DNA from: Parafrankia sp. EUN1f
GTDB lineage: Bacteria > Actinomycetota > Actinomycetes > Frankiales > Frankiaceae
Direction: 5' to 3'
NCBI RefSeq assembly: GCF_000177675.1
Contig: NZ_ADGX01000060.1
Span: forward strand, 1-49,022
DNA: 49,022 nt
The notes below the pieces were generated by a model that did not search any database, had not been told where the DNA came from, and saw only the letters and a program-made list of their open reading frames with translations. This document shows, in pieces, positions 1-6,692 of the stretch. A program made the position numbers and the translations under genes. The stretch's first letter is position 1, and every line of letters begins with the position of its first letter.

Positions 1-259
1 CGCCGAACTCGTCAGACTCGTCAGCTTCGCCATCCAGAGCAGCGAACTTATCCTCAGCAACATCATCCGGCAGACCATCTAAACCAGCGCCGTCGCCGGA
101 CTCGTCAGACTCGTCAGCTTCGCCATCCAGAGCAGCGAACTTATCCTCAGCAACATCATCCGGCAGACCATCTAAACCAGCGCCGTCGCCGGACTCGTCA
201 GACTCGTCAGCTTCGCCATCCAGAGCAGCGAACTTATCCTCAGCAACATCATCCGGCAG
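1..259. repeat. 93-bp tandem repeat, about 2.8 copies in the window
   Basis: The sequence repeats with an exact 93-bp period from the left edge to 259, and it continues beyond the window. I found one difference: A at position 6 where later copies have G, which changes Ser to Phe in the encoded protein. The period equals 31 codons, so gain or loss of copies keeps the frame of the minus-strand gene. Near-identity at synonymous positions points to recent amplification or ongoing homogenisation. Confidence 0.95.
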
Positions 260-415
260 GGCGTCGGGATTTGAGTCGCCTGGTGACGGGGTGAGGTCGG
301 CGGCTGCGGGTCCGTCGCCGTCGAGGGCTTGGGCCTTGGCTTCGGCGGCGGAATCGGTGGGCGGTGGGGACGGTGGGGGGATATCAGCAGAATCGGCTGC
401 TCCATCGACGGGCAT
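1..415 (-). CDS. Acidic tandem-repeat protein, truncated at the left window edge
   Basis: An uninterrupted frame starts at ATG 415 and runs off the window, with 138 codons visible. The start lies 3 nt after the stop of the HerA-like gene, and AGGAG sits 10 nt upstream, so it should be co-transcribed and probably translationally coupled. Residues 1 to about 52 are Pro/Ala/Asp-rich. After that come 31-residue repeats, each containing DDVAEDKFAALDGEADES followed by a Ser/Gly/Asp linker and GLDGLP. Each full unit has 12 acidic residues and a single Lys, so the chain is strongly anionic and probably extended. The codons (TTA, GAT, GTT, GCT, TCT, AAG) are unlike those of the flanking G+C-rich genes. 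There is no signal peptide in the visible part. I do not recognise the family. A flexible acidic adaptor or DNA-mimic role is speculation. The C-terminus is not visible. Confidence 0.75.
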   Translation of the reverse strand, partial: MPVDGAADSADIPPPSPPPTDSAAEAKAQALDGDGPAAADLTPSPGDSNPDALPDDVAEDKFAALDGEADESDESGDGAGLDGLPDDVAEDKFAALDGEADESDESGDGAGLDGLPDDVAEDKFAALDGEADESDEFG

Positions 416-418
416 GGG

Positions 419-3400
419 TCAGGTGCTCCTGTTCTGCCGTTCCACCAGGTCAGCGAGCTGGTCGGCGAGTTTCGCGAGGCCCGGTCCCGCGCATGCCGAG
501 CGCAGTGCGGCGCGTAGGTGGCGGGGTGTGGTGCCGCCGACGAGCTGTCGTAACGCTGGGAGGAGTCCGCTGACCTCGATGTCGCCGAGGCTGACGGCGT
601 CCTGGCCTGCGGCGTTGGCAGGGTGTTCTTGCAGTTCCCGCAATTGTTCGACGACCGTCGCGCCGACGAGCAGGAGGCCGCGGCGGCGCCAGTCAGGCGT
701 GTCGGGATGTGGTCTGGTGGTCGCCCAGGGTTCGCTGGAGGCGCGGACGAGCGTGCGTCGCACGTCCTGCCAGCGGTACTTCCCCGCGGTCCACTGGCGC
801 GTGTCCCCGGTGGCGGCAGGGAGACCTGCGGAGAGTCGGTGCAGGGTGTCCGAGAGGCGGTCGGCTGAGTCGTCCGGGTCGACGAACGGTCGCAGCCCGC
901 TCGCGCGGGCCGAGACGGCGCGGTCCACCGCATGGGCCAGCGCACAGTCGAGGCTTCGGGGTGGCAGCGACGCCAGCCGGGTGCGCAGCTCCGCCGACGG
1001 CGCGGGTGCAGGGAGCTTCAGGAGGTGCGCGAGCCCGATCACCTGGTGCGCGGCGACGGCCTCGACCCAGATGAGCAGGTCGGGTTCGGCTGCGAGGTGC
1101 GCCGCGTCGTTCACTTCCGCGAGGGTGCAGGCCCGCTTGCGGCAGTCGGCCCCGCACAGCTGGCTGCGCCGACCCGCCAGCGGGACACCGTCGTGGCGGG
1201 CGCCCGCGGCGGATTCCCGGTCGGAGCCGGGCGTCATCCGGGTGAGCACCGGCCGGTCCATCCCGTCCACGGTGACCGCGGCCACGCCGGCCGGCAGCGC
1301 GACGACCAGCTCCGACTGGGGGCGCTGGAGGTTCATGGTCGCGCCGACGGCGGCGCGGTCATCGGCCGACGGGAGCCGGTGCATGACCTTCAGCGCGGTG
1401 TTCTTCAACACGTCCGGGACGATCTTCGCGGGAATCTGCTCGACGACCAGGACACCCTCGCCGTAGGCACGGATCTCCGCGAGCAGTGAGGCGAAGAGCT
1501 CGACGGCCGCCGCGGCAGGCCCGTGCTCGACGTTGCGCAACAGGCGGTGGGCCTCCTCGACGACCAGCAGGTGCCGCAGCCGGTCGGCGTCGTCGCCAGC
1601 CACCGCGCCGCGGGCATGCCGGACACGCAGATGCTCGACGATGCGGACCAGCACGGCGCCGAGCAGGAACGCCTTGTCCTGGTCGTTGGTGATGTCCTCC
1701 AGCTCGAAGACCACGTTGCGGGTCAGGAGCGCCCCGATGTCCAGCGGGTGCCCGCCCTCGAAGAACCGGCCGGGTGTGCCCTCCCGCAGCGAGCCGATCC
1801 GGACGTCGACGAAACCCCGGACGTCCGCGGTGACCTGCGTGCCGTAGCCGATCCGCTCGACCACCCGCGACGCGGTGCGCTGCAGGTCGCCGAGTGTCGG
1901 GTAGCGCGGCCGGGCGGCCCTCAGCTCCTCGTCGTCGTGCATTCGCGGCCGGTGGGCTGGGCGCATCCGGCTGGCGACCAGGTCCCAGCCGGCGTCGGAG
2001 TAGCAGACGGTCAGCGCCCGTGCCAGCACCTGCGGGAATGGCTCGTGAGACTCGAACGCCGCCAGGAAGAGTGCCCGGACCAGGTCGATGTGGCTCTGCA
2101 GCGGGAACCCGGGCTCAGGCTCCAGGGGGTTGAGCGCCGCGGGTGCCGCGTCGATCCGTCCCGGCCGGATCACCAGCACCTCGTGGCCGGTGAGCCGACC
2201 GGCCATCCGCGCGTACTCTGCCTTCGCCGGTTCGAGAACCATCCACGGAACCGGGTCGGGTGCGGTGGCAAGGGCCTCCAGCAGGGAGCGGACCGTCTGG
2301 GATTTCCCCGAGCCGGTCGCCCCGCAGACGAAGGCATGCCGGTTCAACGTCGCCCGGCTGACGGCCAGCGGCCCGGCGGGCGTCCATCCGGCGTCGAGCA
2401 CCTCGCCGAGGTGGATGTCGCCACCCGCGGAGTTGTCCGTGCGGTGCGGCGGTTCGGCTGCGGCGATGTGCCGAAGGGCGCCCTCGGGCGTGACGTCGAA
2501 CGTGTGCGGGGCGACGAGAGTGATACCGGGAAGTTCCCGCCGGGGTGGCCGTGCGATCGCCGCGAGCAGCTCCGCGCTCGCCCGGAACGGATACCGAGGG
2601 GCGGTCTGGGCATCGAGCGCGACGGCGAGCGCTTCCGGCGGCTCCGGTGACGGAGCCAGCACGTAGGGCAGGTCGTCGAGGTCGCTCGTGCCGCACAGAA
2701 GCGCCGCGGTCAGGCGGGCGTCGACCGGATCCGCGCCGCCGGCCAGTACCCGCACCTCCCACATGCCGCTCGCGGCCGAGCGGGTCAGCTCGCGGTAGCG
2801 GGCGTCGCTGCGTTCGAGTTCCACGCGGGCCTGCGCGTCTCTGTCCCGCTGCTGTAGGAAGGGGATCGTGCGGAGCAGGTCCGCGCTCTCAGCCTCGACG
2901 GACCTCGGTGACACGGGCGTGGCGAGGACCAGCCAGGCATAGGCGCCGGGCAGGTGTGCGACGTGGTCGTCGAACGAGCCGCGTCGCTGCGCCCGCCCGC
3001 TCGCCGCGGGGGCATGCGCGGGCCGCGACCACAGCGCGTCCGAGATGCCGGTGCAACGTTGCCACACCGGGAAGGCGCCGAGCGCCGTGACGACCGCGGC
3101 TGTCTCGATCGCGACGGCGGTGCCACCAGGCGGATAGAGCACGGGTTCCGGCTCACCGCTGGTGCGCTCTGGCGACGGGGCCGTGGACGTTCCGCGTGCG
3201 GCGGGCGGGAAGCCCGGGTATCCGCCCACGAGGAACCAGGTGTGTGGGTCGCCGGGCCGGCGTAGCCAGGCCACCGCGATCATCCGGCCTGGCGCCGCCC
3301 CGGCGGTCAGTGCGGCGTGCGCGGCGACGAGCGCCGCACACAGCTGTATCGGTGTCTCGTCAGGCTGGCCGTCCTCCGGTGGGCGAGGTACCGAGATCAG

Positions 3401-3439
3401 CCGGTGGAATCGGAGACCGTGCAGGTCCACCGCGTTCAT
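419..3439 (-). CDS. HerA/DUF87-type P-loop ATPase with long N- and C-terminal extensions
   Basis: A 1006-residue protein with a Walker A GATGSGKS at about 372-380 (Lys379) and a Walker B LLVVEEAH with Glu628-Glu629. A following stretch, VVEQIPAKIVPDVLKNTALK, matches the sensor region of HerA/VirB4-like translocases. These ATPases usually form hexamers that pump DNA or power a membrane machine. The first 340 or so residues show no motif I know. After the ATPase core there is a Cys cluster (C761-x3-C765-x4-C770) and about 235 residues of unknown fold. The gene begins 9 nt after the stop of the membrane protein gene and ends 3 nt before the acidic-repeat gene, so the three form an operon. Length far exceeds plain HerA (about 500-600 residues). 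No NurA nuclease partner is adjacent, which argues against the classical HerA-NurA repair pair. ATPase assignment is firm and the role is unknown. Confidence 0.85.
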   Translation of the reverse strand: MNAVDLHGLRFHRLISVPRPPEDGQPDETPIQLCAALVAAHAALTAGAAPGRMIAVAWLRRPGDPHTWFLVGGYPGFPPAARGTSTAPSPERTSGEPEPVLYPPGGTAVAIETAAVVTALGAFPVWQRCTGISDALWSRPAHAPAASGRAQRRGSFDDHVAHLPGAYAWLVLATPVSPRSVEAESADLLRTIPFLQQRDRDAQARVELERSDARYRELTRSAASGMWEVRVLAGGADPVDARLTAALLCGTSDLDDLPYVLAPSPEPPEALAVALDAQTAPRYPFRASAELLAAIARPPRRELPGITLVAPHTFDVTPEGALRHIAAAEPPHRTDNSAGGDIHLGEVLDAGWTPAGPLAVSRATLNRHAFVCGATGSGKSQTVRSLLEALATAPDPVPWMVLEPAKAEYARMAGRLTGHEVLVIRPGRIDAAPAALNPLEPEPGFPLQSHIDLVRALFLAAFESHEPFPQVLARALTVCYSDAGWDLVASRMRPAHRPRMHDDEELRAARPRYPTLGDLQRTASRVVERIGYGTQVTADVRGFVDVRIGSLREGTPGRFFEGGHPLDIGALLTRNVVFELEDITNDQDKAFLLGAVLVRIVEHLRVRHARGAVAGDDADRLRHLLVVEEAHRLLRNVEHGPAAAAVELFASLLAEIRAYGEGVLVVEQIPAKIVPDVLKNTALKVMHRLPSADDRAAVGATMNLQRPQSELVVALPAGVAAVTVDGMDRPVLTRMTPGSDRESAAGARHDGVPLAGRRSQLCGADCRKRACTLAEVNDAAHLAAEPDLLIWVEAVAAHQVIGLAHLLKLPAPAPSAELRTRLASLPPRSLDCALAHAVDRAVSARASGLRPFVDPDDSADRLSDTLHRLSAGLPAATGDTRQWTAGKYRWQDVRRTLVRASSEPWATTRPHPDTPDWRRRGLLLVGATVVEQLRELQEHPANAAGQDAVSLGDIEVSGLLPALRQLVGGTTPRHLRAALRSACAGPGLAKLADQLADLVERQNRST

Positions 3440-3448
3440 CGCATCGCC

Positions 3449-5428
3449 TCAGCCGGCATGCCCGGGAGGCTGCCCCTGCCACGCCGGCTGCGGCGATGGA
3501 AGCGGGTAGGCGTGCGGCGGAGGGTAAGCGCGCCCGGGCCCGCCGTATCCTGGCGCGCCCTGTCCCAGCGCAGCCTGTCCCGGCGCGCCCTCGGGCACGC
3601 GGTTCACGTCCGCGACCTTCGGGAGCAGCACGGTGCCCGGGTTGCAGTCTCCGCTGCGCACCCGGCCCGGGCCGTCGACGGTTCCGACGAGGACGAACGC
3701 CGTCGCAGGCAGGCTCTGCAGGACGGTCGGCTCGACGGTGTACTCGTTCACCCGCTGGTAGGTGGAGCCGTCGTTGCGAGAGGTCGACTCGGTGAAGCTC
3801 CGCGTACTCTGCCACGTTTTGGAGAACGAGCTGCTTACCGAGGAGTTCCGGCTGTCCACCGAGTGCAGTCCGTAGCCCGAGCTGCGGCCTTCCGACACCG
3901 ACTTTCCGGCCTGCTCTCCGTGGCTGGTGCTCACGCCGTCGGCGAGGCTGCGGCCGATCTGTTCGGTGAGCTGGGAGAGCGTGAACCGGTAGCCCCGGCC
4001 GATGAAGTCGGCCGCGAGGCCGGCCTCCCGCGCGTTACCGAGACGCATGATCACGGCAGCCCCCCCGTGGCTGCCGAGCAGGCGTTCGGCGTCGTCGGCG
4101 AGCCGCTCGAACATCAGGATCAGACGGATCTGGGTCAGCTCGGCATGCCGGACGAGTGTGTCGAGCGCGGTGCGGCCGACACGGTCGGCGCCGGCGACCA
4201 CGAGGACCGGGCGGCTGGTCACGGTTGACCGTTGGCGCATTCGCGCGAGTACCGCCTGGACAACGATCCGGTCGACGAGCGCCTTGTGACGGGCCGACAC
4301 CCTGCGGCTCGAGGTGGCGAGCACCCGCAGCTGCCGTTCGGGCCACCAGTCCGGGTCTCCTGACAGGCGCCGGGTCACCGGGCCAGGGGTCGGCTGTTCC
4401 GTGAAGTGGTCGAGCTCGGTCCGCAGGAAGCGGACCTGGTCGGCGACCCGGTCCCGCTGGGCGAGACCGTGCATGCGCTGCTGCAACGCGGCGATCTCCG
4501 CGGTGGTGAGCAGCCCCGGGTGGAGTGCCTCCTCGTGGTTATCCAGCACGCGCAGCGCGGCGGCGAGGCGCGCGAAGGAGTAGGGCGGCGCCAGCCTTGT
4601 GGTGACGGTCCTGAGAATGTCGGCGTCGATGACCCGAAGCGTCGGCTCACCGCCGTCGCGGCGCTCGGCGTCGACGGCGTCGGCGATCAGGTCGGCGACC
4701 TCGTTGGCATCGAGACCGTCGAGCGTCCCGACCTGCTCCAACGCGGCGGGAAGTTCGTGGACGTCCGCCGGAATACCCGCGTGGCCGGCCAGCGAGACGA
4801 GTTCGTCGGCCACGGCGCGTTCGGTCAGGTCGATCAGCAGGATGCCGCGGCCCGACCCCAGAAGGGACGCACCACAGGTGGCGAGAAGGCTGCTCCAACC
4901 GGCCGTTGTTCCACCAAGGACGTCGATTCTCGGGGCTCCGACGGCGTCGAGGGGGAAGTACAGCATCGCCCGCTCGATCCGCTCCGCCTCGGCCTGGTCA
5001 TGTGCGTACAGGCGTTGCCGCCACTGCACGGTCAGAACCTCGTGGGAGCGCTGGTAGTCGGCGAACTCCGCGGACGCCTGGCTGGTCGCGTCGACGATGC
5101 GGCGGTGGAGGGTAGAGACCCGAACGAAGGGGATGGCCGCGATGAACATACCGAAGCTCAGAAGGGCGATAGCGGGAGCCTGATCACCCTCGTGGAAACC
5201 GGCGAGCGACCACAGCCCGAAGAGACCGCCTATCAGCATCCAGGGACCGAAAGATGTCTGCTCCTGCGTGCGTTGAAGGTCGGACACGTCCGGCGGCGAA
5301 GGCGGCTGCCAGATCGGGGGGCGGTGCAGCTCCGGGGACGGCGCGGGCGGTGCCGGCAGAACGTACTCCCAGCCCCAGCGCTCGCGCGGGATGAACAGTA
5401 ACCGGACAAGCTCGGTCGCCGTATTCAC
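3449..5428 (-). CDS. Membrane-anchored degenerate P-loop protein with Ser-rich segment, partner of the HerA-like ATPase
   Basis: A 659-residue protein. Residues 61-77 and 84-104 form two likely transmembrane helices after a Pro-rich cytoplasmic start. At 172-180 GGTTAGWSS has the spacing of a Walker A motif, but Trp178 replaces the catalytic Lys. It is followed by a helix and GILLIDL, as in RecA/FtsK-like folds. VLVVAGAD (408-415) looks like a weakened Walker B. Residues 500-550 are very rich in Ser, and NEYTVEPTVLQSLPATAFVL (561-580) resembles the C-terminal strand region of VirD4/TraG-like coupling proteins (impression only). The last 45 residues are Gly/Pro-rich. It is the first gene of the operon. 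I infer a catalytically dead, membrane-tethered subunit working with the active ATPase downstream. No family name can be given with confidence. Confidence 0.7.
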   Translation of the reverse strand: MNTATELVRLLFIPRERWGWEYVLPAPPAPSPELHRPPIWQPPSPPDVSDLQRTQEQTSFGPWMLIGGLFGLWSLAGFHEGDQAPAIALLSFGMFIAAIPFVRVSTLHRRIVDATSQASAEFADYQRSHEVLTVQWRQRLYAHDQAEAERIERAMLYFPLDAVGAPRIDVLGGTTAGWSSLLATCGASLLGSGRGILLIDLTERAVADELVSLAGHAGIPADVHELPAALEQVGTLDGLDANEVADLIADAVDAERRDGGEPTLRVIDADILRTVTTRLAPPYSFARLAAALRVLDNHEEALHPGLLTTAEIAALQQRMHGLAQRDRVADQVRFLRTELDHFTEQPTPGPVTRRLSGDPDWWPERQLRVLATSSRRVSARHKALVDRIVVQAVLARMRQRSTVTSRPVLVVAGADRVGRTALDTLVRHAELTQIRLILMFERLADDAERLLGSHGGAAVIMRLGNAREAGLAADFIGRGYRFTLSQLTEQIGRSLADGVSTSHGEQAGKSVSEGRSSGYGLHSVDSRNSSVSSSFSKTWQSTRSFTESTSRNDGSTYQRVNEYTVEPTVLQSLPATAFVLVGTVDGPGRVRSGDCNPGTVLLPKVADVNRVPEGAPGQAALGQGAPGYGGPGRAYPPPHAYPLPSPQPAWQGQPPGHAG

Positions 5429-5654: not shown

Positions 5655-6692
5655 TCAGGCTTCCGGGTCGCGAGATTCAGCGTGCCTGAGATCCCTGGGT
5701 GGGGCGCCGTAGGCGGCCCGGAATGCGCGGCTGAAGTCCGCGGGATGGCGGAATCCCCACCGGGCGGCGATATCGCCGATCGTGAGGTGTTCCAACCGGG
5801 GGTTCAGAAGATCATCTTTGCAGCGCTCGAGGCGGCGGCGGCGGACCATCGCACCGACCGTCTCGGGCTGACCCTGGAACAGCTGGTGCAGTGTGCGCAC
5901 GGATATGTGATGGGCCGCGGCAATGGTGGCCGGCCGCAGTTCGCGGTCACCGAGGTTGTGGTCGATGAAGGTGTCGATGCGTGCCCGCAGCACCTGCTCA
6001 CGGGTTTCCACCGGCAGGGTGCGCTGCGCGTCCAGGTGACTCGCGAGGAAGGTGCTGGCCAGGTCGAAGCCGATGCGGCCCAACCGATGCAGTTCAGTCG
6101 AACCATGCGCGGCGGTCTTCTCCCGGAAGCCGGACAGGAATTGGCCGAGCAGCGCTCCCGTCTGGGTCCGCACGAGGAGAGCACTGCCCAGCAGCCGGTC
6201 CGCCGCGTCGCCCGACAACGGCAGGGAAGCTCTGGGCAGCCGCATCAGCGTCACACGTTTCTGGCGACCGTGGTCGAGGAAGTCGGCCGCCAGGGGGTGG
6301 GACGTGTCGAACAGTGCGATATCTCCGGCCTCGAGGCATGTGACATTGCCGGATTGTTCCACTCTGATTGGGCTGCCGTGGACCATGAACAGGTAGTAGT
6401 CCTCCGGGTCATAGCTCCGGATGAGGGCGGGGCTCCGACGGCCCGACAGCGGCGAGAACGTGAGTGTCGTTACGGCGCCACCAGCCAGATCGAACACGTT
6501 GATTTTCCCGCGGAAACAATCAGCGTAGCCACTGGTCGCCACAGTAGGCATGATATCCTGACACATTCGATGCATCCACCACTCGAACCGTTCCCGCGCC
6601 GGAACGACGTCAGTGGACAGGGTCGTTACGGAGTCCCGCACCAGGGGCAGGTTTTGGGACGCAGGTTCAGACACTCGTTTACCGATCCGCAA
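5655..6692 (-). CDS. AraC-family transcriptional regulator
   Basis: A 345-residue regulator. The N-terminal two thirds look like the AraC-like ligand-binding domain (PF14525 type; EDYYLFMVHGSPIRVEQSGN and the following cupin-like strands). The C-terminal 100 residues contain the two helix-turn-helix units, with RPATIAAAHHISVRTLHQLF and LTIGDIAARWGFRHPADFSR. The annotated start is TTG 6692 and lacks a clear ribosome site; GTG 6674 is an alternative. It sits between the ATPase operon and the catabolic cluster, on the same strand as both. The 226 bp after its stop should hold the promoter of the ATPase operon. Target and inducer are unknown. Confidence 0.9.
   Translation of the reverse strand: MRIGKRVSEPASQNLPLVRDSVTTLSTDVVPARERFEWWMHRMCQDIMPTVATSGYADCFRGKINVFDLAGGAVTTLTFSPLSGRRSPALIRSYDPEDYYLFMVHGSPIRVEQSGNVTCLEAGDIALFDTSHPLAADFLDHGRQKRVTLMRLPRASLPLSGDAADRLLGSALLVRTQTGALLGQFLSGFREKTAAHGSTELHRLGRIGFDLASTFLASHLDAQRTLPVETREQVLRARIDTFIDHNLGDRELRPATIAAAHHISVRTLHQLFQGQPETVGAMVRRRRLERCKDDLLNPRLEHLTIGDIAARWGFRHPADFSRAFRAAYGAPPRDLRHAESRDPEA

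Follow-up and report, generated by a model that had tools for sequence, protein, structure and literature searches.

Polymorphic toxins, as set out in the sections of the survey by Zhang et al. (2012, PMC3482391) drawn on here, carry a constant N-terminal part, a swapped C-terminal toxin, and an adjoining immunity gene, and the routes listed there are the type II, V, VI, and VII secretion systems (T2SS, T5SS, T6SS, and T7SS), Photorhabdus virulence cassettes (PVC), TcdB/TcaC, PrsW, and MuF. We analyzed a 49,022-nucleotide stretch of DNA from Parafrankia sp. EUN1f (contig NZ_ADGX01000060.1, analyzed at full length and hereafter called the window), in which three adjoining genes, here named P1, H, and T, encode a membrane protein with a degenerate P-loop, a HerA/VirB4-like ATPase, and the start of an acidic protein. 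We consider it reasonably probable that P1-H-T is a polymorphic toxin system that encodes its own translocase, a type IV-like pair of ATPases. Relatives of T show the same plan as the surveyed toxins and have families in common with them, including YwqJ, Ntox24, and ADP-ribosyltransferase, whereas the routes described in those sections do not include a pseudo-VirD4 paired with a VirB4/HerA-like motor, and the leader in P1-H-T consists largely of an acidic, low-complexity chain, with short repeats in some lineages. The whole would therefore be a variant of polymorphic toxin systems in which the translocase pair is the new part. The features concerned are as follows:

3449..5428, minus strand: P1 (ORF1), 659 amino acids, GTG start; putative membrane pseudo-ATPase with a VirD4/TrwB/VirB4-like predicted fold, Walker A lysine replaced by tryptophan
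419..3439, minus strand: H (ORF2), 1006-amino-acid HerA/VirB4-like ATPase with intact Walker A and Walker B
within 419..3439, minus strand: domain plan of H, consisting of an N-terminal domain, an ATPase core, and a helical C-terminal domain
2..415, minus strand: T (ORF3), start of the acidic leader, at least 138 amino acids, open at the window edge
1..259, no strand: tandem repeat of 93 bp, 2.8 copies, inside T; assembly break point

A reading made from the sequence alone had proposed that these genes form one unit, and the list of open reading frames (ORFs) in the window agrees: P1, H, and T are co-directional on the minus strand, running left into the contig edge, with gaps of 9 nt between P1 and H and 3 nt between H and T. 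The nearest relative found (locus L095, genome G414) has the same order and identical gaps; its H and P1 are 97% and 91% identical to those of the window, and its T is complete at 598 amino acids. Because the window is an entire contig (C337) read from base 1, in a genome of 9.35 Mb in 396 contigs, T is cut inside the 93-bp repeat. The closest named relatives of H are from Frankia and Pseudofrankia, and a second, divergent set lies on contig C329 of the same genome (locus L004), with an H that is 56% identical over query residues 54 to 985. Linkage of P1, H, and T recurs in several actinobacterial genera, with differences in order, and P1 can also be found in the absence of H.

We compared the genes that follow H at 25 distinct actinobacterial loci, hand-counted with duplicates removed. 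Their products were examined by hmmscan (22 products) or by a genome search with PF14431 (3 products); relative to the listed loci, this set adds L140 and L145 and omits L022 and L110. The spacing between H and T is between −8 and +8 nt in 20 of the 25, the others having 24, 28, 48, 60, and 283 nt. Nine T products contain a toxin-type domain above the Pfam cut-off, namely EndoU (L024), a YwqJ deaminase (L010, L012, L019, and L020), Ntox24 (L140), an ADPrib_exo_Tox ADP-ribosyltransferase (L056 and L142), and a calpain-type Peptidase_C2 (L055). Two more have a domain below cut-off, a Ribonuclease in L102 (21 bits against 24) and RelA_SpoT in L141 (21 against 27). We make no claim for by-eye readings that liken L089 to restriction endonucleases and L054 to papain, and a lipase assignment for L143, based on a weak NCBIfam match (SA1320 family, 1.1e-4, 21 bits against 230) and a GHSLG motif, was not counted. 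YwqJ domains above cut-off number six among 35 Frankiales genomes (about 251 Mb, summed from listed sizes), with three more below it; four of the six sit in T, and the surroundings of the other two, spanning 10.9 and 17 kb, have no P1 or H.

The exchange of toxin tails is clearest between closely related loci. L004 and L102, from one genus, share 97% identity in H, 96% in P1, and 81% in the first 100 residues of T, whereas identity falls to background over the final 110 residues of T (26%) and in the gene that follows (30%); the endonuclease V gene beyond them is again 93% identical. Similarly, L012 and L089 are 89% identical in H and 88% in P1, compared with 25% in the T tail and 19% in the next gene. 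By these comparisons, T in the relatives joins a constant N-terminal part to exchangeable C-terminal toxins.

The constant part is a low-complexity leader, with a proline run in the window type. For 17 of 22 sequences the leader has a charge of −10 to −34 per 100 residues. Under strict patterns, a DKxAALDG repeat occurs in five of the 22 (two of these being both pieces of the window T), a DSxALAES-like repeat in another five, and neither in 12, against 0 to 0.015 in shuffled controls.

Immunity-type genes accompany the toxins. In L102 a barstar gene (65.8 bits, cut-off 23.4) overlaps the RNase gene by 4 nt, and a MORN gene (MORN_2) follows the YwqJ tail in four of four loci. Elsewhere the next gene encodes DUF6406 (after the calpain), DUF6086 (L089), an ankyrin protein (L143), or an unknown small protein; that of L004 is DUF2283-like (21.6 bits, cut-off 23) and is common to both loci with an L004-type tail. 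Toxin and next-gene types thus co-vary, YwqJ with MORN at four loci and the L004-type tail with the DUF2283-like gene at two. Remnants of immunity genes also lie away from the matching toxin at L089, L138, and L019: the MORN gene of L089 lacks a usable start and adjoins another kind of toxin cassette, and L019 has a partial DUF2283-like stretch. Genome G415, in which neither P1 nor H was found, carries a frameshifted MORN gene. In the clear cases, then, the gene directly downstream of the toxin appears to be an immunity gene; none was found behind the window-type T.

Since T in the relatives is a leader for swapped toxins accompanied by immunity-type genes, its cargo would be protein; of the two cargoes allowed by the sequence-only reading, DNA or protein, DNA is not supported as the likely one. 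The same reading described T as a polyanion; this is borne out for the leader (isoelectric point 4.05 and 32% aspartate plus glutamate over the 138 visible residues) and falls short of the whole, as in relatives this leader carries a swapped toxin.

An endonuclease V gene lies behind the toxin/immunity cassettes in both lineages (L004:11060-11851, L010, L012, L019, L020, L089, L102, L138, and L139), and also behind a YwqJ-MORN-like pair in genome G426, in which neither P1 nor H was found. The gene is present in 12 of 16 genomes, each time as a single copy, and it occurs as well where no P1 was found; for these two reasons we rejected it as a functional partner of the cassettes and treat it as a site marker. 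It may be only an insertion site, and the pairing of a deaminase toxin with an inosine-cutting nuclease is suggestive. Between the immunity gene and endonuclease V, two loci carry a NADAR-domain gene (L004:10491-11123 and L102:12029-12676); the NADAR family removes ADP-ribose from guanine.

The visible T of the window has a proline-rich N terminus (PPPSPPP) and three DKFAALDG motifs. Contig C245 of the same genome starts with the same 93-bp repeat, identical at 258 of 258 bases, and its frame encodes an acidic product of 616 amino acids that ends at a stop codon, so the remainder of the window T likely lies there. The 31-residue repeats of the window T (2-415 and L045:3-1853) are near-identical and broke the assembly, while those of L095 are degenerate; the window repeat is perhaps a recent expansion. 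A 648-bp stretch behind the window-type T is 93% conserved as DNA in L095, with short ORFs matching in several frames, and no small immunity ORF stood out there. In the window itself no toxin or immunity gene is seen.

H has the signature of a working motor. It matches the Pfam families HerA_C, DUF87, and FtsK above their cut-offs and contains Walker A (GATGSGKSQT) and Walker B (EEAH) motifs. All 51 aligned relatives keep GK[ST] and EEAH and with them the FtsK-HerA superfamily core (Walker A GxxGxGK[ST] and the Walker B acidic pair). The structure model of H (predicted local distance difference test score, pLDDT, 78; predicted template-modeling score, pTM, 0.65) aligned with Thermoanaerobacter VirB4 at Z 31.5 (root-mean-square deviation [rmsd] 3.2, 342 aligned positions, 22% identity), with DndH-C at Z 33.4, and with HerA at Z 27.5. 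Since DndH and HerA score like VirB4, we take this match at the superfamily level. Residues 1 to 748 of H also align loosely with TrwK/VirB4 (7o43; 557 positions, Z 18.9, rmsd 8.7), and H aligns loosely with a chain of the R388 type IV secretion system (T4SS) (8rtd; Z 20.9, rmsd 9.4). H can thus be fitted to a VirB4-like (TrwK) motor, loosely including its N-terminal region. Scores against NCBIfam HerA families were far lower than required (37 against a cut-off of 800 for anti-phage HerA, and 28 against 970), as was that for the archaeal DNA import ATPase CedD (NF053655, 57 against 600 bits), and HerA-NurA and CedD readings of H were rejected on these scores and on gene context.

P1, by comparison, looks like a maintained pseudo-enzyme. 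It has no Pfam match, and its P-loop-like stretch reads GGTTAGWSS, with tryptophan at the lysine position. In an alignment of 61 sequences this position is tryptophan in 56, arginine in 5, and lysine in none, and the Walker B-like stretch is mostly of the hhhAGAD type without an acidic pair; it is because the tryptophan is so widely kept that we regard the degeneration as maintained. P1 has a single strong hydrophobic segment (residues 84 to 102) and, by eye, a second, weaker one at about 61 to 78. VirD4 proteins have a two-helix membrane hairpin, which these two segments would suit. After the ATPase-like domain comes a serine-rich stretch, in a low-confidence part of the model (about 477 to 573), and the tail is proline-rich.

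The structure model of P1 (mean pLDDT 66, pTM 0.63) gave Z 18.8 with DndH-C, 18.6 with VirB4 (rmsd 3.6, 314 aligned), 17.8 with TrwB, 14.3 with HerA, and 11.2 with EccC, while unrelated structures scored about 8; absences from such fold-match lists were given no evidential weight. Although both models fit one fold class, a direct profile comparison of P1 with H produced no match. A search of PDB sequences with the P1 profile gave four weak matches (best 0.005, over a 49-position stretch) and was left unused. The P1 fold thus fits that of TrwB, but a catalytic VirD4 coupling ATPase would be expected to keep the Walker A lysine that is missing in 61 of 61 sequences. On both motors the sequence-only reading has held up well: the active-looking P-loop protein, the membrane-tethered one that lost its lysine, and the idea of a pumping machine all agree with these results, as both models fall in the fold class of transfer and secretion ATPases.

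Taken together, these features suggest a mechanism in which P1 would sit in the cytoplasmic membrane as receptor and dock and a ring of H would bind it. The leader of T, which is acidic, often rich in proline, and motif-bearing, would serve as the export address; our guess is that a ring with DNA pumps in its ancestry might hold on to such a polyanion. Powered by ATP hydrolysis, H would then push T out, toxin last, to hit neighboring cells, while the immunity gene would protect the producer.

Several observations weigh against a polymorphic toxin system with its own translocase. Export of T by P1 and H is something we infer from sequence, and no signal peptide or channel gene was recognized in the operon. 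No recognized domain occurs in 14 of the 25 T products, the window type included, and Pfam and NCBIfam searches returned nothing useful for the products of L004, L011, L089, L054, L136, L095, and L109. The putative C-terminal part of T on C245 matches no known toxin family and no immunity gene was found downstream of it; the same is true of the T of L095. Five of the 22 leaders are not strongly acidic, L021 having a charge of +3 and L109, L024, L022, and L136 of −1.5 to −9.5 (motif and charge values for L109 are approximate, the sequence having been extended beyond its stop). Although P1 is directly upstream of H at 17 of the 25 loci, in the remaining eight it lies downstream of T (five, of the C329 type), on the opposite strand (L055 and L056), or on another contig (L136). 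A Foldseek search with the P1 model returned nothing at E 0.001 or better, TrwB being the top match at E 0.023, and the confidence of that model is moderate.

The pair also occurs in other company. At 13 Frankia loci H comes before P1 and no acidic gene adjoins H (three of these loci are on contigs shorter than 5 kb), and 13 P1 and H loci of the Acrocarpospora/Streptosporangiaceae type have, by eye, MurT-GatD-like genes instead of T; given these two groups, the P1-H pair can exist without an adjacent T. Another 13 loci have P1 without a nearby H (L104-L107, L111, and L127-L134), eight of them beside MurT-GatD-like genes, and in five genomes of genus g242 no H was found at E 1e-20. These loci, too, count against the proposed system.

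Of the alternatives, the one that survives best, although we still think it unlikely, is that P1 and H provide only the coupling for a larger T4SS or T7SS whose other genes lie elsewhere, and replace VirD4/VirB4 or EccC in it. The fold matches to TrwB, VirB4, and EccC and the loose alignment of H to full-length TrwK/VirB4 are consistent with this. In addition, P1 in genus g242 is convergent with an operon encoding a 598-amino-acid product, in which a TraG P-loop was matched weakly and below cut-off (4.7e-5). Ahmad et al. (2025, PMC12691689), in the part of that article used here, place an alarmone-synthetase gene of Streptomyces albireticuli that lacks a signal beside TrwB, TrwK, and TrwI and suggest a type IV system. 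That locus resembles the Streptomyces antimycoticus plasmid (L141) in having a RelA/SpoT-type toxin beside TrwB/TrwK-like genes, and may be a relative of P1-H-T; it differs in including TrwI, and the part used gives it one sentence and one toxin type.

A comparison with the two secretion systems also yields points against a larger machine. P1 resembles TrwB and VirB4 in fold and in its N-terminal hydrophobic segment, but would be a dead ATPase in a VirD4-like role, and no channel genes or relaxase were recognized in the P1-H-T operon. The VirB3, 6, 8, and 10 channel proteins and a relaxase were neither annotated at the plasmid loci nor present among 10 scanned neighbors in the window, and no channel or ESX gene is annotated near the plasmid loci, where many genes are listed as "hypothetical"; whole genomes were not searched for them. 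EccC of the T7SS comes split into EccCa and EccCb. With it P1-H-T shares a membrane part plus a soluble motor of the FtsK-HerA superfamily and, if our reading is correct, toxin export in monoderm bacteria; it differs in that no WXG or LXG domain was found in the 22 T products scanned and that P1 has one ATPase-like domain, which is dead.

We judge it improbable that the operon is instead an intracellular defense or toxin-antitoxin system, in which H and P1 would sense phage or foreign DNA and release T, otherwise restrained by the small protein, as an abortive-infection effector. HerA-type ATPases do act in anti-phage complexes, H has the same core ATPase fold as HerA-NurA, SIR2-HerA, and DUF4297-HerA, with HerA-SIR2 and HerA-DUF4297 among its fold matches, and its PADLOC scores for HerA and mad8 were weak but present. 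However, the operon contains no NurA, SIR2, or DUF4297 partner, the partner being a pseudo-ATPase; the NCBIfam anti-phage score given above is low; and no sensor domain was recognized in the leader. Moreover, the cargo set (ADP-ribosyltransferase, calpain, RelA/SpoT, EndoU, YwqJ, and Ntox24) and the immunity remnants are typical of intercellular polymorphic toxins, according to the sections of Zhang et al. cited above (PMC3482391).

A housekeeping pair linked to the cell envelope or chromosome, with T as a variable passenger, would account for the Acrocarpospora/Streptosporangiaceae-type loci beside MurT-GatD-like genes (13 with H and 8 without, none with T) and for the 13 H-first Frankia loci. 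The distribution of P1 is too patchy for us to give this much credence, with profile matches in 25 of 35 Frankiales, 28 of 197 class-sample, and 5 of 396 phylum-sample genomes (the three samples overlap); the pair also occurs on plasmids, and H and T are tightly coupled. Finally, a conjugation-like DNA pump, to which the closest folds (the DNA and relaxosome pumps TrwB, VirB4, HerA, and DndH) would point, was rejected as very improbable on scores and gene context, given that no relaxase was recognized in the operon, that P1 is without its Walker lysine throughout, that most P1 plasmids are typed non-mobilizable (17 of 20), and that the variable gene, wherever it can be clearly assigned, encodes a toxin.

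Returning to a polymorphic toxin system with its own translocase, we also entertain a stronger claim, though tentatively and with some doubt: that the pair may represent a separate class of bacterial protein export. Here a live VirB4/HerA-like ring with a conserved dead VirD4-like membrane partner (lysine to tryptophan) would grip a long, polyacidic, DNA-mimicking leader, with short repeats in some lineages, and export exchangeable toxins out of monoderm actinobacteria; other phyla would have more distant forms. In the literature searched, which left most subscription journals and preprints outside its coverage, we recognized no description of the P1-H pair, and the portions of PMC7159879 and PMC9503650 consulted do not describe it; because of this, and with one partial precedent, we count the pair as the new part. 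The earlier statement that the operon matches no named system therefore stands for the pair in the searches made and gives way for the whole, which fits polymorphic toxin systems. The nearest single-chain counterpart is NCBIfam NF033849 ("serine-rich protein"), to different parts of which H (51 bits) and P1 (11.5 bits) align, both far below the cut-off of 650 and here as two genes.

If T is exported by P1 and H, the polymorphic toxins of monoderm actinobacteria, Frankia and Streptomyces among them, would gain a simple route of delivery; Streptomyces clavuligerus plasmid pSCL4, for instance, carries a P1-H-ADP-ribosyltransferase unit. P1 would also be a clear example of a pseudo-ATPase retained as a component of a machine, with tryptophan or arginine in place of lysine in 61 of 61 sequences. 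Because the leader is mostly a polyanion, the system would test how a motor derived from DNA pumps handles protein. The toxins are ready-made readouts, and the 14 unrecognized tails may include new toxin/immunity pairs.

A search of 72,556 plasmid records matched relatives of H in 41, of which 20 reach 80% coverage or more and many are copies from S. clavuligerus. P1 was matched in 20 records, and most of the 17 non-mobilizable P1 plasmids are likewise S. clavuligerus copies. The order on pSCL4, the S. antimycoticus plasmid, and a Nocardia plasmid is P1, H, T, and a small or ankyrin gene. P1 at these Streptomyces and Nocardia loci was confirmed by profile, and the T of pSCL4 is annotated as an ADP-ribosyltransferase. 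In 50,697 phage records, searched at E 1e-15, we found only two partial H matches, covering 41% and 37% of the query.

Directly upstream of P1 in the window is one further gene on the same strand:

5655..6692, minus strand: AraC-type regulator

Relatives of this regulator are also upstream of P1 in L095 (95%) and on the S. antimycoticus plasmid L141 (37%), and it possibly regulates P1-H-T.

Some variant loci deserve mention. P1, with or without H, lies beside MurT-GatD-like peptidoglycan amidation genes in several genera (L120-L134 and L027-L031), where there is no toxin gene. Genus g242 (L104-L107 and L111) has a P1 relative in genomes where H was not found, and at L104 and L107 this P1 gene converges on an operon judged T4SS-like by eye, with one TraG P-loop-like ATPase below cut-off. 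Cyanobacteria have distant HerA relatives, 22 to 23% identical to H for L033-L035; low-complexity acidic ORFs follow the HerA relative in L032, L033, and L034 and not in L035, and a nearby 207-amino-acid ORF in L034 has an EIHHMPS motif that is HNH-toxin-like by eye, with no Pfam support. On a plasmid of Streptomyces sp. NBC_00708, the C-terminal part of an H relative forms the end of a gene annotated "zeta toxin" (L145:4518-6059); next come a T-like acidic gene and one that matches HEAT weakly. In Pseudofrankia sp. BMG5.36 (L086), two tandem P1 genes precede a single H.

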